Source: a virus. From it: a stretch of DNA of 31,736 nt. Every line of letters starts with the position of its first letter. The first letter of the stretch is position 1. The notes beneath the pieces were generated by a model. That model did not search any database. It worked only from the letters and a program-made list of their open reading frames with translations, and was not told the origin of the DNA. The position numbers were made by a program, and so were the translations under genes. The stretch is taken from the IMG/VR virus record IMGVR_UViG_3300042402_000301, positions 1-31,736 of that record; one strand, given 5' to 3'. Shown here piece after piece: positions 12,389 through 23,782 of this stretch.

Positions 12389-13591
12389 ATGGCAACGATC
12401 AAAGGATACAAACCACATGACAATCAGAGGATGATCCACAACGCTATCAATTCAGGAGCGCAGAAATACTATGCACTGAATATAGGTAGGCAGTTTGGAA
12501 AAACATTGCTTGGGATCAATCAGCTTCTGTATTGGGCGATCAATGATCCAGGGTGCAAGATCGCATGGGTGACTCCGGTATACAAGCAAGGCAAGAAAGT
12601 ATTCGCAGATCTGGAGAGAGCAGTCCGCAGCTCCGGGCTATTTGAGTTCAACAAGTCTGATCTGATAGTGAGTGGGTTTGGATCTACCATTGAGTTCTTT
12701 TCAGGTGAGAGGCCTGACAATATCCGAGGGAACACATTCCAATATATGATTGTGGATGAGATGGCATTCACCAGGCCTGAGCTTTGGGATGAGGTCCTAT
12801 CAGCGACAGTCATGGTCAAAGGAAAGAAGGTGATCTTCATATCAACTCCCAAGGGAAGGAATCACTTTCACCGGATCTGTATGCAGCCGAACTATGATGA
12901 GAGGTATGCGTACTTTCATTTCACATCCTATGATAATCCAATGATAGATCCTCAGGAACTCAATGAGAGAAAGCGGTCACTGCCTGATCACATCTTCAGA
13001 CAGGAATACATGGCCGAGTTCATCGACAATGCATCAGGACTATTCAAGGACATCAGATCCTGCGTGGGTACATGGCAACAGCAAGGAAAGAACTATGCAG
13101 GACTTGACATCGGTAGGGCAGATGACTACACTGTGCTGACCATACTGAATGAAGCAGGGCAGATGATCTACGTAGGCCGATGGAGACACGATGAATGGAC
13201 AAAGATCATCGACAAGGTAGAAGCACAGATCCGCAAGTACAATGCAGTGACTCTGATAGAGGTGAATAACCAGGGAGACATATTCCATGAGATGCTGTCA
13301 TCCAGGATGCGTAACCTGATAAACCCATTCACTACCACATCCAAAACCAAGCCTGTCATCATTGAGGATCTTGCCCTGGCATTTGAGCAGCAAGAGATCA
13401 AGATCATGGAGGAGGGGTGGCTGATTGATGAGCTTGAGAATTTCACCTATATTTACAATCCAAATACGAGATCAGTTCAATATTCTGCACCTATCGGGAT
13501 GCATGATGATGGAGTGATCTCACTGGCACTCGCATGGCATTGCAGAAAGCACTACAGCAAGAGAGGCCAATATAAGATATTAAGAGCATGA
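12389..13591 (+). CDS. Terminase large subunit
   Basis: The 400-residue packaging motor and nuclease shows all expected parts. These are Walker A GRQFGKT (33-39), Walker B YMIVDEMA (119-126, with D123 and E124), the coupling motif STPKG (152-156), and a RuvC-like nuclease domain with acidic residues in AGLDIGRADDY (D240), LIEVNNQGD (E291) and MHDDGVISLALA (D373/D374). It cuts concatemeric DNA and pumps it into the prohead using ATP. Its length is normal for compact terminases. It has its own promoter and a leader hairpin, and its stop overlaps the next start. Arg codons are mainly AGA and AGG, unlike those of the capsid gene. Confidence 0.93.
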   Translation: MATIKGYKPHDNQRMIHNAINSGAQKYYALNIGRQFGKTLLGINQLLYWAINDPGCKIAWVTPVYKQGKKVFADLERAVRSSGLFEFNKSDLIVSGFGSTIEFFSGERPDNIRGNTFQYMIVDEMAFTRPELWDEVLSATVMVKGKKVIFISTPKGRNHFHRICMQPNYDERYAYFHFTSYDNPMIDPQELNERKRSLPDHIFRQEYMAEFIDNASGLFKDIRSCVGTWQQQGKNYAGLDIGRADDYTVLTILNEAGQMIYVGRWRHDEWTKIIDKVEAQIRKYNAVTLIEVNNQGDIFHEMLSSRMRNLINPFTTTSKTKPVIIEDLALAFEQQEIKIMEEGWLIDELENFTYIYNPNTRSVQYSAPIGMHDDGVISLALAWHCRKHYSKRGQYKILRA

Positions 13592-14378
13592 AACAGATAC
13601 AGGCATCCTATCCAAAGAGCATCAGAGAATGCACTCCAGATCAGTTAACGAAATGGCTGATGTTGGCACCGATCATTCAGGACACAAATAAGAATCTCAG
13701 CAACATGCTTGACTTTCACTGTCAGCTGATCAGCATCTTCACTGGGCTATCCATGAATCAGGTTCGCAAGGTTCATGTAGATGACATCCTTAACCTGGCA
13801 ACAGAACTGCTCAAGATGCTCGCTGAGTTTAAAACTGAGGAGCCATCAGGATCTGTAACCATTGATGGGAAGACCTATGTATTTGAAAAGAACTTTGAGT
13901 ACATCACTACCGGGCAGATCATTGACATGAAGCTGATCGAGGATGTATCACAATCTCCTGCCGAGGCACTTGCCATCTGTTATATTGAAGAGGGAATGGA
14001 ATACTGCCAAGAGGATCCAAGAGGGAAGGTGTTGAATCCTAACAAGAAGAGGGAGGAGATCTTCAAGGCCAAGTTCCCAGGTGATGAGTTCCTGAATTTC
14101 TTCGCTTTTTTTTTGCGCGAATCAGAGACGCGGAAGCTCGCTATCATGGGGATTCAATCAGCGAGGATGACGATGATGAATCAGAATCTTCTGAAGCAAC
14201 TATCAGAGATTCCGAATGGTTTGCCTGGACAAAGAACATCACTTTCCTGGCGCAGCAGCTTGGCAAAGATGTCGATGTCATCACCCGTCAGCCGTATGTT
14301 AAGACGCTTTTTTGGCTCAACTTCTACAAGATAAAAACGGAACAAGATTACATCTTATATAAGAATGGCAGAGTTTGA
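13588..14378 (+). CDS. Tail assembly chaperone-like protein made by a probable -1 frameshift
   Basis: Two overlapping frames are joined at T9 (14106-14114). The zero frame runs from ATG 13588 to a stop at 14332-14334 (248 residues), but after the T run it becomes low-complexity (many Ser, Arg, Met). The -1 frame continues to a TGA at 14376-14378 with protein-like sequence, including SEWFAWTKNITFLAQQLG and VKTLFWLNFYKIKTEQDYIL. The fusion would be 263 residues. The layout recalls gpG/gpGT tail assembly chaperones, where a slippery site makes a short and a long form. However, it lies beside the terminase and not directly before the tape measure. A homopolymer sequencing error is the main alternative. 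Confidence 0.65.
14106..14114 (+). promoter_or_regulatory. T9 slippery site for -1 frameshifting
   Basis: In the zero frame the codons are GCT TTT TTT TTG, which contains the classic slippery heptamer T TTT TTT. Slipping back one base after the second TTT gives TTT GCG CGA and enters the long -1 frame. A run of nine T could also let RNA polymerase slip. Confidence 0.6.
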
Positions 14379-14892
14379 TTTCTTGGAAGGATTGGGATTC
14401 TCACAGACTGATCTTGCTCAGCCTGAGACAGCCTATGATAAGTTCATCCTGGCACTTGGTAACTCAGTCACAGAGTCATTCAGAGATTACATCCGAGACA
14501 ATGTAAACAACACAGGAGCATTGGCTCAATCTGTGGTATACTTTCCAACAGGAGAGATGAGCTTCGAGATCCAGGCGGATCAGTACTACAAGTTCCAGGA
14601 TGAGGGTGTGAATCCTATAGGGCAAAACAAGTTCCCGACAAACTATCAATTCAAGCTGCCATTTGTAACCAAGGCCCATGCGACTGCCATCAGAGAATGG
14701 AAAGGATATGATATGAGTCATGCCTATGCATCAGCAGCAGCGACAAAGTTTAAATATGGATTGAAGCCTCGCAATATCACAGCCAATGTAATGACTGATG
14801 AGGTGCTTGATAAGATAGCAGCAGATCTGGCAGAGGTGACAGGACTGATCTTTGAGGTGACATTCACAAAAAATACTGAGAAATGGCAATAA
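14365..14892 (+). CDS. HK97 gp10-like tail/neck completion protein
   Basis: The 175-residue product has the features of gp10-like head-tail or tail-completion proteins: FRDYIRDNVNNTGALAQSVV (helix then strand), YYKFQDEGVNPIG (about residues 72-84, the 'Y..f.e.G' strand) and a helix ending WKGYDMSHAYASAAATKFKY GLKPRN with the common terminal 'kyG.kP.nf' pattern. Such proteins sit at the neck or tail top. The gene starts 14 bases before the end of the frameshifted frame and overlaps the next gene by 10 bases, so it is part of the same translation-coupled late operon. Confidence 0.6.
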   Translation: MAEFDFLEGLGFSQTDLAQPETAYDKFILALGNSVTESFRDYIRDNVNNTGALAQSVVYFPTGEMSFEIQADQYYKFQDEGVNPIGQNKFPTNYQFKLPFVTKAHATAIREWKGYDMSHAYASAAATKFKYGLKPRNITANVMTDEVLDKIAADLAEVTGLIFEVTFTKNTEKWQ

Positions 14893-20667: not shown

Positions 20668-23154
20668 ATGGCAAACAAAGAAGCTGTATTTTCTCTAAGG
20701 GTTGATACCGGAAACTCGGTACAGGATGTCCAGTCTTTTGACAAGGCAGTCAACAGTCTGAATAAGGATCTGAATGCTGTCGATAAAACAGCGAGCAGCC
20801 TTGATGGAATAGATGACTTTACTCAGCGGATGAATGAGCTATCCGACAGGATAGAAGCTGGAGGTCTGACAATGCGAGACATGACGCAGATCATGAAGCA
20901 GTACCAGACTATCGCTGCTCAAGCTGGCATGGAGTCACCTGTAGGACAGCAGGCATTGCAAGCTGCTGCACAGCTCAAGGATGAGATCGGCGATTTGAAG
21001 GCTGCCACTACTGCACTATCCTCAGACTTTGTGGCCCTTGACACTACACTTGCAGGGATAGAAACAGGAGCAGCTGTATTTGAAGGATTCCAGAGCGCAA
21101 TGGCTTTGACTGGAGTAGAGAGTGAGGCACTGATTCAGACCATGGTCAAGCTACAAGCTACTCAGGGACTTGTCAACGCAGTAAATACTATAGCAAAGAA
21201 TCTAAACTCAGATGCGATCCTTGGGATCCAGTTAAGGAATGCAGCTGAGAAGATCAAGACTGCACTCACTGTTGAGAACACAGTAGCTACAGGAGCGAAT
21301 GCAGGAGCAACTGTTGCCATGACCACAGCACAGAAAGCTGCAACGATAGCAACGAACCTTGGGACTCTTGCAATGAAAGCACTCAATGCAGTGATCAAGG
21401 CGAATCCTATTTTCTTATTGATAGGTGCACTTGCTGCTGTGGCAGGAGCATTGATTGCATTCGGTGATAATTCTGATGAGGCTGCGGAATCAAATGAAAG
21501 ATTTACAAAAAGTTTAGAGCGCACAAGAAAAGCCTCTGATGATTCATTAGCTGCATTACAGAAACATCTTGACCAGAGAATAAAACTCATGGAAGCTGAG
21601 GGCAAATCAGATCATGAACTTGCACAAGAGCAATTAAAAAATATTAAGATAGTTGCCCAGGCAAAACAAGATGAACGTATCAAAGAGCAATATCGCTTTC
21701 AAAACCTTACACAACGATACAAGCAAATGCTTGATCAAGGCAATGAAGATGAAGCATCGGCAATCAAAGAGCAATTAACTCAATCACGCGAGAGATATGT
21801 TGCACTTGGTAAACAGGCTAAAGATCACTATGCAGATATCAAGTTCCAACGTGAACTGGATGCAGCTGAGAACAGAAAGAAAGTAGCAGAGAATGCCAAG
21901 AAGGTAGCCGACAATGCAGAGAAGGTGCAGAAGGAACAAGCTGAGAAGGCAAGAGAAGCAGGAAAGAAAGCAGCTGAGCAGCGCAAGGAAGATTTGAAAA
22001 AGATTCAGGAAGCTGAGAAGGAATTTAATCGCAGCATGCTATCAGATAAGGAACAGGAGATCCTTGCAGAACAGGATAAGTATCTTGAATTAATGAAGCT
22101 CGGGACCAAGCATGGATATGACACAACGAATCTCCGACTTGCTTTAAAGAATGCAATCAATGATATTGAGGCAAAGTATGCACAGCAGGAACTTGACCTC
22201 ATTGATAAGACAAACAAAGAGAAGCAAGAGAAAGATCGCGAAGAGTACAACCGAAAAGAAGCATTGCGCAGACAAGAGATCGCAGATGAGGAGGCATTCT
22301 ATGATACATACAACGCAGCACTGTTGACTCAGCAACAAACTGAGGAGCTTGCTGTAACCGATAAGTATTTTGCTTTAATAGAACAGGCTAAAAAATACGG
22401 CCTTGATGTGACAGCTCTGGAGGAGAAGCAACAGAAAGAACTCCAGGAGATCCGCAATAAATATGATGCTGAGAATCTACAAAAGAAAATTGATATCGGT
22501 CAACAGATCCTCAGTGATATCAGTGCTTTGAATTCTGCCATTGCAGACATTGAGAATGCAAGGCTCCAGGAACTACAGAATCAAACGGATGCACAGCTTG
22601 CCTCATTAGATCAGGCGCAACAGCAGGAACTAAACAGCAGCAATCTGACAGCTGAGCAGAGAGCAGCTATTGATCAGAAATATGCAGCTGCAAAATATGC
22701 CATTGAACTCAAGAACTTCCAGGAGGTAGAGAAGATCAAGAAACAACAGTTTGAAAGAGACAAGGCTCTGAGAATTGCTCAGGTAGCAATCGACACAGCA
22801 ACAGCTATCGTCAAAGGTATTGCTCAGTTTGGTCCTCCTCCATCTCCTGCGGGTATTGCTGCTATTGCATCAGCTGCTATCATTGGAGCTACGCAGATCG
22901 CTGCCATTGCTGCACAGAAATATCAATCAGGTACTGCTCCATCATTGAACACTGGGGGAGGAGGTGTTAGCGCAGGAGCAACAGCAGGACAGTTAGGAGG
23001 CAATGCTGCAAATGCTAACCTGAACACTCAGCAACAGAACACAGCTGAGCTGATAGGACAGAGCAACGAAGGCACTCCGGTATACGTACTCGAATCAGAT
23101 ATCACAGGCACTCAGAACAAGGTGGCTATGCAGAATAAGCTAAGCGTTTGGTGA
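20668..23154 (+). CDS. Tape measure protein
   Basis: The product has 828 residues. The N-terminus is helical with heptad-like repeats (residues 12-120). A hydrophobic stretch, NPIFLLIGALAAVAGALIAF (about 246-265), and a second one near 720-752 (PSPAGIAAIASAAIIGATQI) are typical of tape measure proteins, which are extruded through the membrane at DNA entry. A Lys/Glu/Ala-rich coiled-coil region covers about 290-700. The C-terminus is Gly/Asn/Gln-rich. The 828 residues predict a tail of about 120 nm. Its last 29 bases overlap the end of a gene on the opposite strand. Confidence 0.9.
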   Translation: MANKEAVFSLRVDTGNSVQDVQSFDKAVNSLNKDLNAVDKTASSLDGIDDFTQRMNELSDRIEAGGLTMRDMTQIMKQYQTIAAQAGMESPVGQQALQAAAQLKDEIGDLKAATTALSSDFVALDTTLAGIETGAAVFEGFQSAMALTGVESEALIQTMVKLQATQGLVNAVNTIAKNLNSDAILGIQLRNAAEKIKTALTVENTVATGANAGATVAMTTAQKAATIATNLGTLAMKALNAVIKANPIFLLIGALAAVAGALIAFGDNSDEAAESNERFTKSLERTRKASDDSLAALQKHLDQRIKLMEAEGKSDHELAQEQLKNIKIVAQAKQDERIKEQYRFQNLTQRYKQMLDQGNEDEASAIKEQLTQSRERYVALGKQAKDHYADIKFQRELDAAENRKKVAENAKKVADNAEKVQKEQAEKAREAGKKAAEQRKEDLKKIQEAEKEFNRSMLSDKEQEILAEQDKYLELMKLGTKHGYDTTNLRLALKNAINDIEAKYAQQELDLIDKTNKEKQEKDREEYNRKEALRRQEIADEEAFYDTYNAALLTQQQTEELAVTDKYFALIEQAKKYGLDVTALEEKQQKELQEIRNKYDAENLQKKIDIGQQILSDISALNSAIADIENARLQELQNQTDAQLASLDQAQQQELNSSNLTAEQRAAIDQKYAAAKYAIELKNFQEVEKIKKQQFERDKALRIAQVAIDTATAIVKGIAQFGPPPSPAGIAAIASAAIIGATQIAAIAAQKYQSGTAPSLNTGGGGVSAGATAGQLGGNAANANLNTQQQNTAELIGQSNEGTPVYVLESDITGTQNKVAMQNKLSVW

Positions 23155-23782
23155 TGAACTCACGCTGCGCTTTCTGATTGAACCATGTGTCAGATGTGCT
23201 AAAAGATCCGTAAAGGCTCAGGAACTCCTGGGCCTTTCGTATGTCATTGGCTACCTTGAGATTCTCACCTGGCACATGATCGCATCCATAGTAATTCAGA
23301 TACATGGATTTTATGAAATGATTATGATGCTTCCATGTGATGCGGTCAAATAGGCCGATGAGCTTGTCTGAATCCATGAGTACAGGCTGATGGCACTCAA
23401 AATTCATGATCGGTTTATCTACTGACTTTAAAAAATCTATTGTGTTCTGCATAGCTTCCTGATATGTAGGTGCATGACGTTCATTGATCTGCATCTCTCC
23501 ATTGCTGAGGATGTTGTCAAAGCGAAAGTTTGAGCCAATAAAAAAGTCATCATTCATATAGCAGAAAGTACCTCCGAAATGCCAGGCAAAATGCATCATC
23601 TTGTTGGTCACATCGCAGCCTCTGATGGGCAGCGTGCTGATAGGCACATGAATTCCTTGAGGATGTGGATCTCCTATGACGTAGATCTCAGCATCCGGAT
23701 CAAAGGATCTGAGCCATGCTATTGAATGAGACAGAACATCTACTTTGTTCTGTGTTTTGCGGTATGGATAAACGTATTTCAT
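23126..23782 (-). CDS. Stealth-like sugar-phosphate transferase (glycosyltransferase)
   Basis: The product has 218 residues and is the only minus-strand gene here. It has YMNDDFFIGSNF (about residues 75-86) with the NDD motif of Stealth capsular-polysaccharide phosphotransferases, then FECHQPVLMDSDKLIGLFDR (about 127-146) with the conserved His-x-Pro-like element, and FIKSMYLNYYG near the end, like the Stealth 'R/KSlY.N' segment. Stealth proteins transfer sugar-1-phosphate to polysaccharides of the cell surface. A -7 element lies five bases before its ATG. It overlaps the tape measure end by 29 bases and sits head-to-head with the protease gene. A mobile 'moron' gene altering host surface or virion is the likely reading. 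Confidence 0.7.
   Translation of the reverse strand: MKYVYPYRKTQNKVDVLSHSIAWLRSFDPDAEIYVIGDPHPQGIHVPISTLPIRGCDVTNKMMHFAWHFGGTFCYMNDDFFIGSNFRFDNILSNGEMQINERHAPTYQEAMQNTIDFLKSVDKPIMNFECHQPVLMDSDKLIGLFDRITWKHHNHFIKSMYLNYYGCDHVPGENLKVANDIRKAQEFLSLYGSFSTSDTWFNQKAQREFITKRLAYSA

Follow-up and report, generated by a model that had tools for sequence, protein, structure and literature searches.

A conserved run of nine T and a probable programmed frame change in a phage gene downstream of the terminase

In the IMG/VR virus record IMGVR_UViG_3300042402_000301, a gene directly downstream of the terminase contains a conserved run of nine T (T9), at which a programmed frame change probably yields two proteins; slippage of RNA polymerase is slightly favoured as its agent, and the products likely have a chaperone-like role. 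The window analysed is the whole record (31,736 bases). Sequence comparison demonstrates that the run and the -1 transition are conserved and that both frames are under selection; the slippage itself, its level, its agent and the chaperone role are what we infer. Frameshifts of the lambda type are characteristic of tail assembly and have so far been associated with the ribosome and with a place beside the tape measure gene. In the large and unannotated group of phages described here, the conserved frame switch is located in another part of the genome.

The frameshift site and its surroundings

The run occupies positions 14106-14114 in the context TTC GCT TTT TTT TTG CGC and thus stands in the register GCT TTT TTT TTG. 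If the slip took place on T_TTT_TTT, 175 codons of the zero frame and 88 codons of the -1 frame would be joined to a fused product of 263 aa. This length and the 248 residues of the unshifted product, both given in a preliminary description of the sequence, were reproduced from the frames of the window. No stop interrupts the -1 frame between 14106 and its TGA at 14376-14378, which falls just inside the next gene and overlaps its beginning (ATG at 14365). The zero frame stays open for 73 codons after the slip and its stop ends about 30 nt before the same ATG. When the -1 frame of the window was resampled synonymously, a zero frame open this long arose in 0.75% of the trials. Upstream, the gene and the terminase share an ATGA overlap (terminase end 13591, ATG 13588). 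The features are as follows.

12389..13591, plus strand: terminase large subunit (PHROG phrog_2, E 6.7e-43; Pfam PF03237, E 1.1e-17)
13588..14334, plus strand: zero-frame ORF of the short product, 248 aa, kept in 80/80 of the relatives found first
13588..14112, plus strand: N-terminal part common to both products, 175 codons (alignment A1)
14106..14114, plus strand: T9 run with the in-phase heptamer T_TTT_TTT at 14106-14112
14112..14378, plus strand: -1 frame extension, 88 codons and TGA, giving the long product (alignment A2, codon-position pattern)
14115..14204, plus strand: stretch in which the zero frame is still selected, both frames being selected in its first third (relocation test)
14205..14363, plus strand: stretch coding in the -1 frame only, predicted helical domain W..W...LA...L+W..Y (relocation test, AF2)
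14365..14892, plus strand: next gene, weak match to phrog_29822, the family of gene 42 of phage P12024S (E 0.0038)
20668..23154, plus strand: tape measure-like protein (phrog_25337, E 7.9e-6; phrog_9483, E 1e-4)

Conservation of the run and of the -1 transition

DNA and protein searches with the window gene against INPHARED gave no match, nor did searches with its two frames against Pfam and PHROGs. Among viral contigs, a first search returned 80 relatives, all of which have exactly T9 in the same register and a zero frame that continues; where the contig was long enough, the -1 frame extends over about 87-98 codons. In wider searches, T9 was present in 230/230 loci of the window's family (family 1). 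Loci L138, L153 and L295 have T9 too. The sole match in bacterial genomes, a small contig of an unclassified MAG, has T9 as well. One relative, L153, carries an internal deletion in the N-terminal part (around 2900-2960), by which the upstream and the -1 parts come to share a frame. This deletion, be it real or the product of a chimera, is unrelated to the run, and L153 retains an intact T9 and intact frames downstream of it.

A comparison of the zero-frame structural model with predicted viral proteins led to the cultured Nonlabens phage P12024S. Its gene 38, directly behind the terminase, holds T9, and the -1 frame runs into gene 39. Like the window gene, this pair (phrog_32199) combines a position behind the terminase, T9 and a -1 continuation, but its run stands in another codon register and it is only about 13% identical to the window's family. 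A search from gene 38 revealed a second family (family 2), mostly 25-34% identical to P12024S, in which all 115/115 loci have T9 or T10 (T10 in three) and the same -1 transition. Since many loci represent the same contig twice, these numbers correspond to about 25 (family 1) and about 23 (family 2) independent clusters at 85% identity. Aligned with each other, the two families match along the entire fused product at 13% identity (hhalign E 2.5e-11, a pairwise value). Their codon registers differ, xxT TTT TTT TTG in family 1 and xTT TTT TTT TAT in family 2, while the total of nine is the same in both, and no case of T7 or T8 was found among the loci of either family. After the slip, the zero frame extends over 41-73 codons in family 1 and mostly 58-87 codons, with few short cases, in family 2. 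It is open for at least 33 codons in 32/32 clusters of family 1, compared with 0.48 expected.

No relative examined has lost the run, which is what a deliberate frame change would lead one to expect. The proposal of the preliminary description that T9 joins two frames by a probable programmed -1 shift is thus strongly supported, since both the run and the transition are kept across two distant families. The phages come from freshwater and marine habitats, and the host, a flavobacterium, is identified only for the isolate P12024S. In this isolate (L231, 23136-23830; JQ823122), genes 38 and 39 are annotated as two hypothetical proteins and appear to be the halves of one frameshifted gene; a frame switch would explain such annotations.

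Runs of this length are otherwise rare in these phages. A set of 104 non-redundant loci, each 9 kb or longer, contained runs of nine or more T within ORFs 104 times at this site and once elsewhere. Codon usage upstream in the same genes gives a measure of the composition: Phe is encoded by TTT in 48% (family 1) and 66% (family 2) of cases, and Ala and Gly codons (GCT/GGT) end in T in 32-44%, while at the run every such site is T. Other A/T runs of at least nine numbered 0 against 5.4 expected in family 1 and 8 against 21 in family 2. Outside this site, such runs are avoided in both families.

Selection on both C-termini

The divergence by codon position follows the zero frame up to the run, displays little periodicity for about 30 codons and then takes on the periodicity of the -1 frame. 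Selection was quantified with a relocation test, in which the amino-acid changes caused by the observed substitutions are compared with those caused by the same substitutions placed randomly (O/E). In family 1, frame 0 reached O/E 0.27-0.34 over the last 60 codons before the run, in line with the earlier view that the zero frame is coding there. Behind the run, O/E was 0.87 (z -2.4) in frame 0 and 0.70 (z -5.0) in frame -1 for codons 3-12, and 0.65 (z -12.3) and 0.99, respectively, for codons 13-32, these z values overstating independence because sequence pairs share ancestry. For codons 33-85, constraint was found in frame -1 only (O/E 0.45 and 0.33). In family 2, frame 0 had an O/E of 0.50 for codons 3-12, both frames were constrained for codons 13-32 (0.91 and 0.74), and beyond them frame -1 only. 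The +1 frame displayed no constraint at any stretch of either family in this test.

These substitution patterns show selection on the two C-termini alike: on the zero frame over roughly the first 30 codons behind the run, and on the -1 frame from about codon 33 to the end. This frame-specific selection on both sides of the run backs the proposed programmed transition. Past about codon 33, the zero frame seems to drift, in keeping with the variable position of its stop. The preliminary description was right that the zero frame stays open for about 73 codons, yet its characterisation as low-complexity sequence is too simple, as purifying selection acts over about 30 codons past the run. That homologues might conserve the zero frame instead of the -1 frame had been named as evidence against a shift; among the homologues, the zero frame is kept for only about 30 codons, followed by the -1 frame.

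The predicted structures agree with this division. AF2 modelled the zero-frame product with a mean pLDDT of 70.6 and a helix (165-207) that crosses the slip site, followed by a disordered end (residues 210-248, pLDDT below 50). Folded alone, the -1 part was predicted as a disordered acidic linker (11-32) and two helices (35-50 and 61-84, pLDDT 64-80). The agreement of frame-wise selection and AlphaFold points to two products with two selected C-termini. A fold search of the PDB with the zero-frame model gave no match, and a PDB sequence search with alignment A1 gave only spurious beta-hairpin matches to repeat proteins.

Homologues with a single ORF in Duneviridae

Proteins of phrog_25418 from Flavobacterium phage FPSV-F7, laban6-1 and Cellulophaga phage Ingeline_1 are encoded by one unbroken ORF of 293-301 aa. 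They align collinearly with the fused product (hhalign E 1e-12 for family 2 against Duneviridae) but lack the frameshift, and in Ingeline_1 the homologue lies between the adaptor and the tape measure. Since the Duneviridae homologues are single ORFs, the two-product arrangement has been either gained or lost, and the two-product scheme is not universal for this protein. They provide a natural comparison of one-product and two-product versions.

Flavobacterium phage 6H was considered as another case of a slip site and rejected, because close relatives have an unbroken ORF at this position. Its GenBank gene of 191 aa (L232, 10352-10927, minus strand) corresponds to an unbroken 293-aa gene in FPSV-F7 and 23T, and the break in 6H is likely a sequencing error or a recent mutation.

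Agent of the frame change

An alternative explanation would be a single ORF broken by one base, through sequencing error, pseudogene formation or a phase-variable run. The alignment of the fused -1 product with the single-ORF homologues of cultured Duneviridae speaks for it. However, T9 is found in all 345 loci except for three with T10, in two families and in the isolate P12024S, and selection acts on the first 30 codons or so of the zero-frame tail. In the T10 loci, the zero and -1 parts stand in the same relation as elsewhere, so their extra T arose by substitution, not by insertion. The preliminary description had noted that a true T10 would make one continuous gene; hundreds of independent assemblies, like the cultured phage P12024S, carry T9 in the genome, and in no case is there a T10 that restores the frame. 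We thus regard a broken ORF as very improbable.

A programmed frame change at T9 leaves ribosome and RNA polymerase as candidate agents. Ribosomal -1 shifting is possible, since T_TTT_TTT is present in phase in every sequence, at homologous FF codons of both families. A ratio set by ribosomes on U_UUU_UUU, as in lambda and P2, with the two extra T's a by-product of the encoded amino acids, stands somewhat below an even chance. P2 gpE shifts at TTTTTTG, and the frameshifts described so far for phage chaperones are ribosomal (PMC5009743; PMC3711429). This explanation has to contend with the finding that U_UUU_UUU is a much weaker shift site than A_AAA_AAG for E. coli ribosomes (PMC5009743), and with the sequences downstream, in which no conserved structure was found: RNAalifold detected only weak long-range pairing there (-1.34 kcal/mol), and the mean fold z from pseudoknot-free folding was -0.4 to -0.7 in family 1 and 0.0 to 0.2 in family 2. 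Upstream, inspection of alignment A4 by eye revealed no conserved SD-like stimulator. The heptamer is extended by two T's downstream in family 1 and by one on each side in family 2; a length of nine despite the change of register, with no T7 or T8, likewise speaks against ribosomal shifting. Nine A or T is the run length at which bacterial polymerase slips (PMC5009743, PMC1088944), and selection against runs commonly appears at this length (PMC1088944). A conserved run of at least nine T together with a selected ORF in another frame, the pattern sought for programmed slippage, is found here. Polymerase slippage is therefore slightly favoured, because length nine survives the register change and U_UUU_UUU is a weak ribosomal site. 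This preference is no more than slight, since the outer T's may reflect amino-acid constraint and only two independent lineages are available. The most specific proposal, a morphogenesis gene, probably a tail chaperone, whose product ratio is set by slippage of the host RNA polymerase on a T9 kept across distant phage families and whose two C-termini, both selected, lie in overlapping frames, is accordingly put forward as tentative, somewhat below an even chance.

Long A/T runs within a gene and a product in another frame are likewise known from Shigella mxiE and spa13 and from Thermus dnaX (PMC5009743, PMC1088944), and the last part of the spa13 extension runs into the start of the following gene, as it does in the window gene. 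Those are cellular genes, whereas the window gene belongs to a phage, and the literature searched held no report of programmed slippage in a phage gene of the tail-chaperone type. That the length of T9 survives a register change allows a clean test of whether phages set protein ratios by polymerase slippage.

Relation to tail assembly chaperones

In lambda, the frameshifted gene lies between the tail tube and tape measure genes, and the G frame ends soon after the slip. The window gene resembles gpG/gpGT in its predicted short and long products with a common N-terminus, in a putative minority -1 product with an extra C-terminal domain and in being a late gene of a tailed phage. It differs in its place, behind the terminase and not in the lambda position, and in its zero frame, which does not end shortly after the slip but runs on for 41-73 codons, about 30 of them selected; sequence similarity to lambda gpG/gpGT was not recognisable. 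The preliminary description had stated that the gene does not lie before the tape measure, as that of a classical chaperone would; the tape measure does lie downstream of it, 6.3 kb off and not adjacent. The P12024S gene is likewise situated behind the terminase. P2 gpE/E' and Mu gp41 (PF10109) are further candidates for comparison: P2 has a T-rich slip site, TTTTTTG, and weak profile similarity exists, but the P2 run is T6 and its gene lies directly before the tape measure. Four members gave weak matches to PF10109 (Phage_TAC_7; E 0.011-0.058, 16.2 bits against a curated cut-off of 25 bits), the similarity spanning residues 29-76 of some members. Compared with the family-1 profile, Mu gp41 scored highest of 37 P2, Mu and lambda proteins (25.9, followed by 19.4); with the profiles of family 2 or Duneviridae, the same 37 proteins gave no such similarity. 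Because direct similarity is weak and the position differs from the classical one, we do not file the gene as a member of a chaperone family.

Alternatively, the gene may encode two real products that act as a head-tail connector or as another morphogenesis factor of the terminase/neck block. It does lie between the terminase and a weakly Neck1-like family gene, far from the tape measure, and the TAC similarity is below threshold; gene 42 of P12024S, whose family the downstream gene weakly matches, itself matches phrog_5 Neck1 (E 4e-4) and resembles tail completion/Neck1 proteins. However, the homologue of Ingeline_1 lies between adaptor and tape measure, and phages of this type generally have their structural genes scattered, with capsid and portal following the tape measure. 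We know of no other conserved frameshift of this kind in neck genes. We consider a role of this kind unlikely, at roughly one chance in four. Lambda G/GT (PMC5009743) has the arrangement proposed here, a late gene whose products share their N-terminus and of which a minority carries a -1 extension, and by this analogy the gene likely acts like a tail assembly chaperone.

Under the chaperone reading, most messages or ribosomes would keep the zero frame and yield the 248-aa protein that ends in a long helix. In a minority, one U would be gained by slippage of RNA polymerase, which is slightly favoured, or the ribosome would move back one base at U_UUU_UUU, and an acidic linker and a helical C-terminal domain would replace the helix end in the 263-aa form. 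By analogy with lambda G/GT and P2 E/E', both forms are most likely tail assembly chaperones, in which the tape measure would be coated by the common N-terminal part and the tail-tube protein recruited by the -1 domain. The frame change probably sets the ratio of these two helper proteins.

Further observations on the window

A second T9 on the plus strand (1972-1980) lies outside the large ORFs, between an ORF end at 1741 and a start at 2104. Between 8803 and 11311, three consecutive genes resemble sugar-modification genes, two of them without a Pfam match; the third is PP-loop ATPase-like, has CxxC motifs close to its start and weakly matches PAPS_reduct/QueC. These genes may form a phage-borne cassette for surface glycans or glycosylation. 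A lone minus-strand gene (23126-23782) overlaps both the end of the tape measure (23154) and the start (23716) of the next plus-strand gene, which encodes an XkdF-like protease. This minus-strand gene had no Pfam match and reads like a glycosyltransferase.
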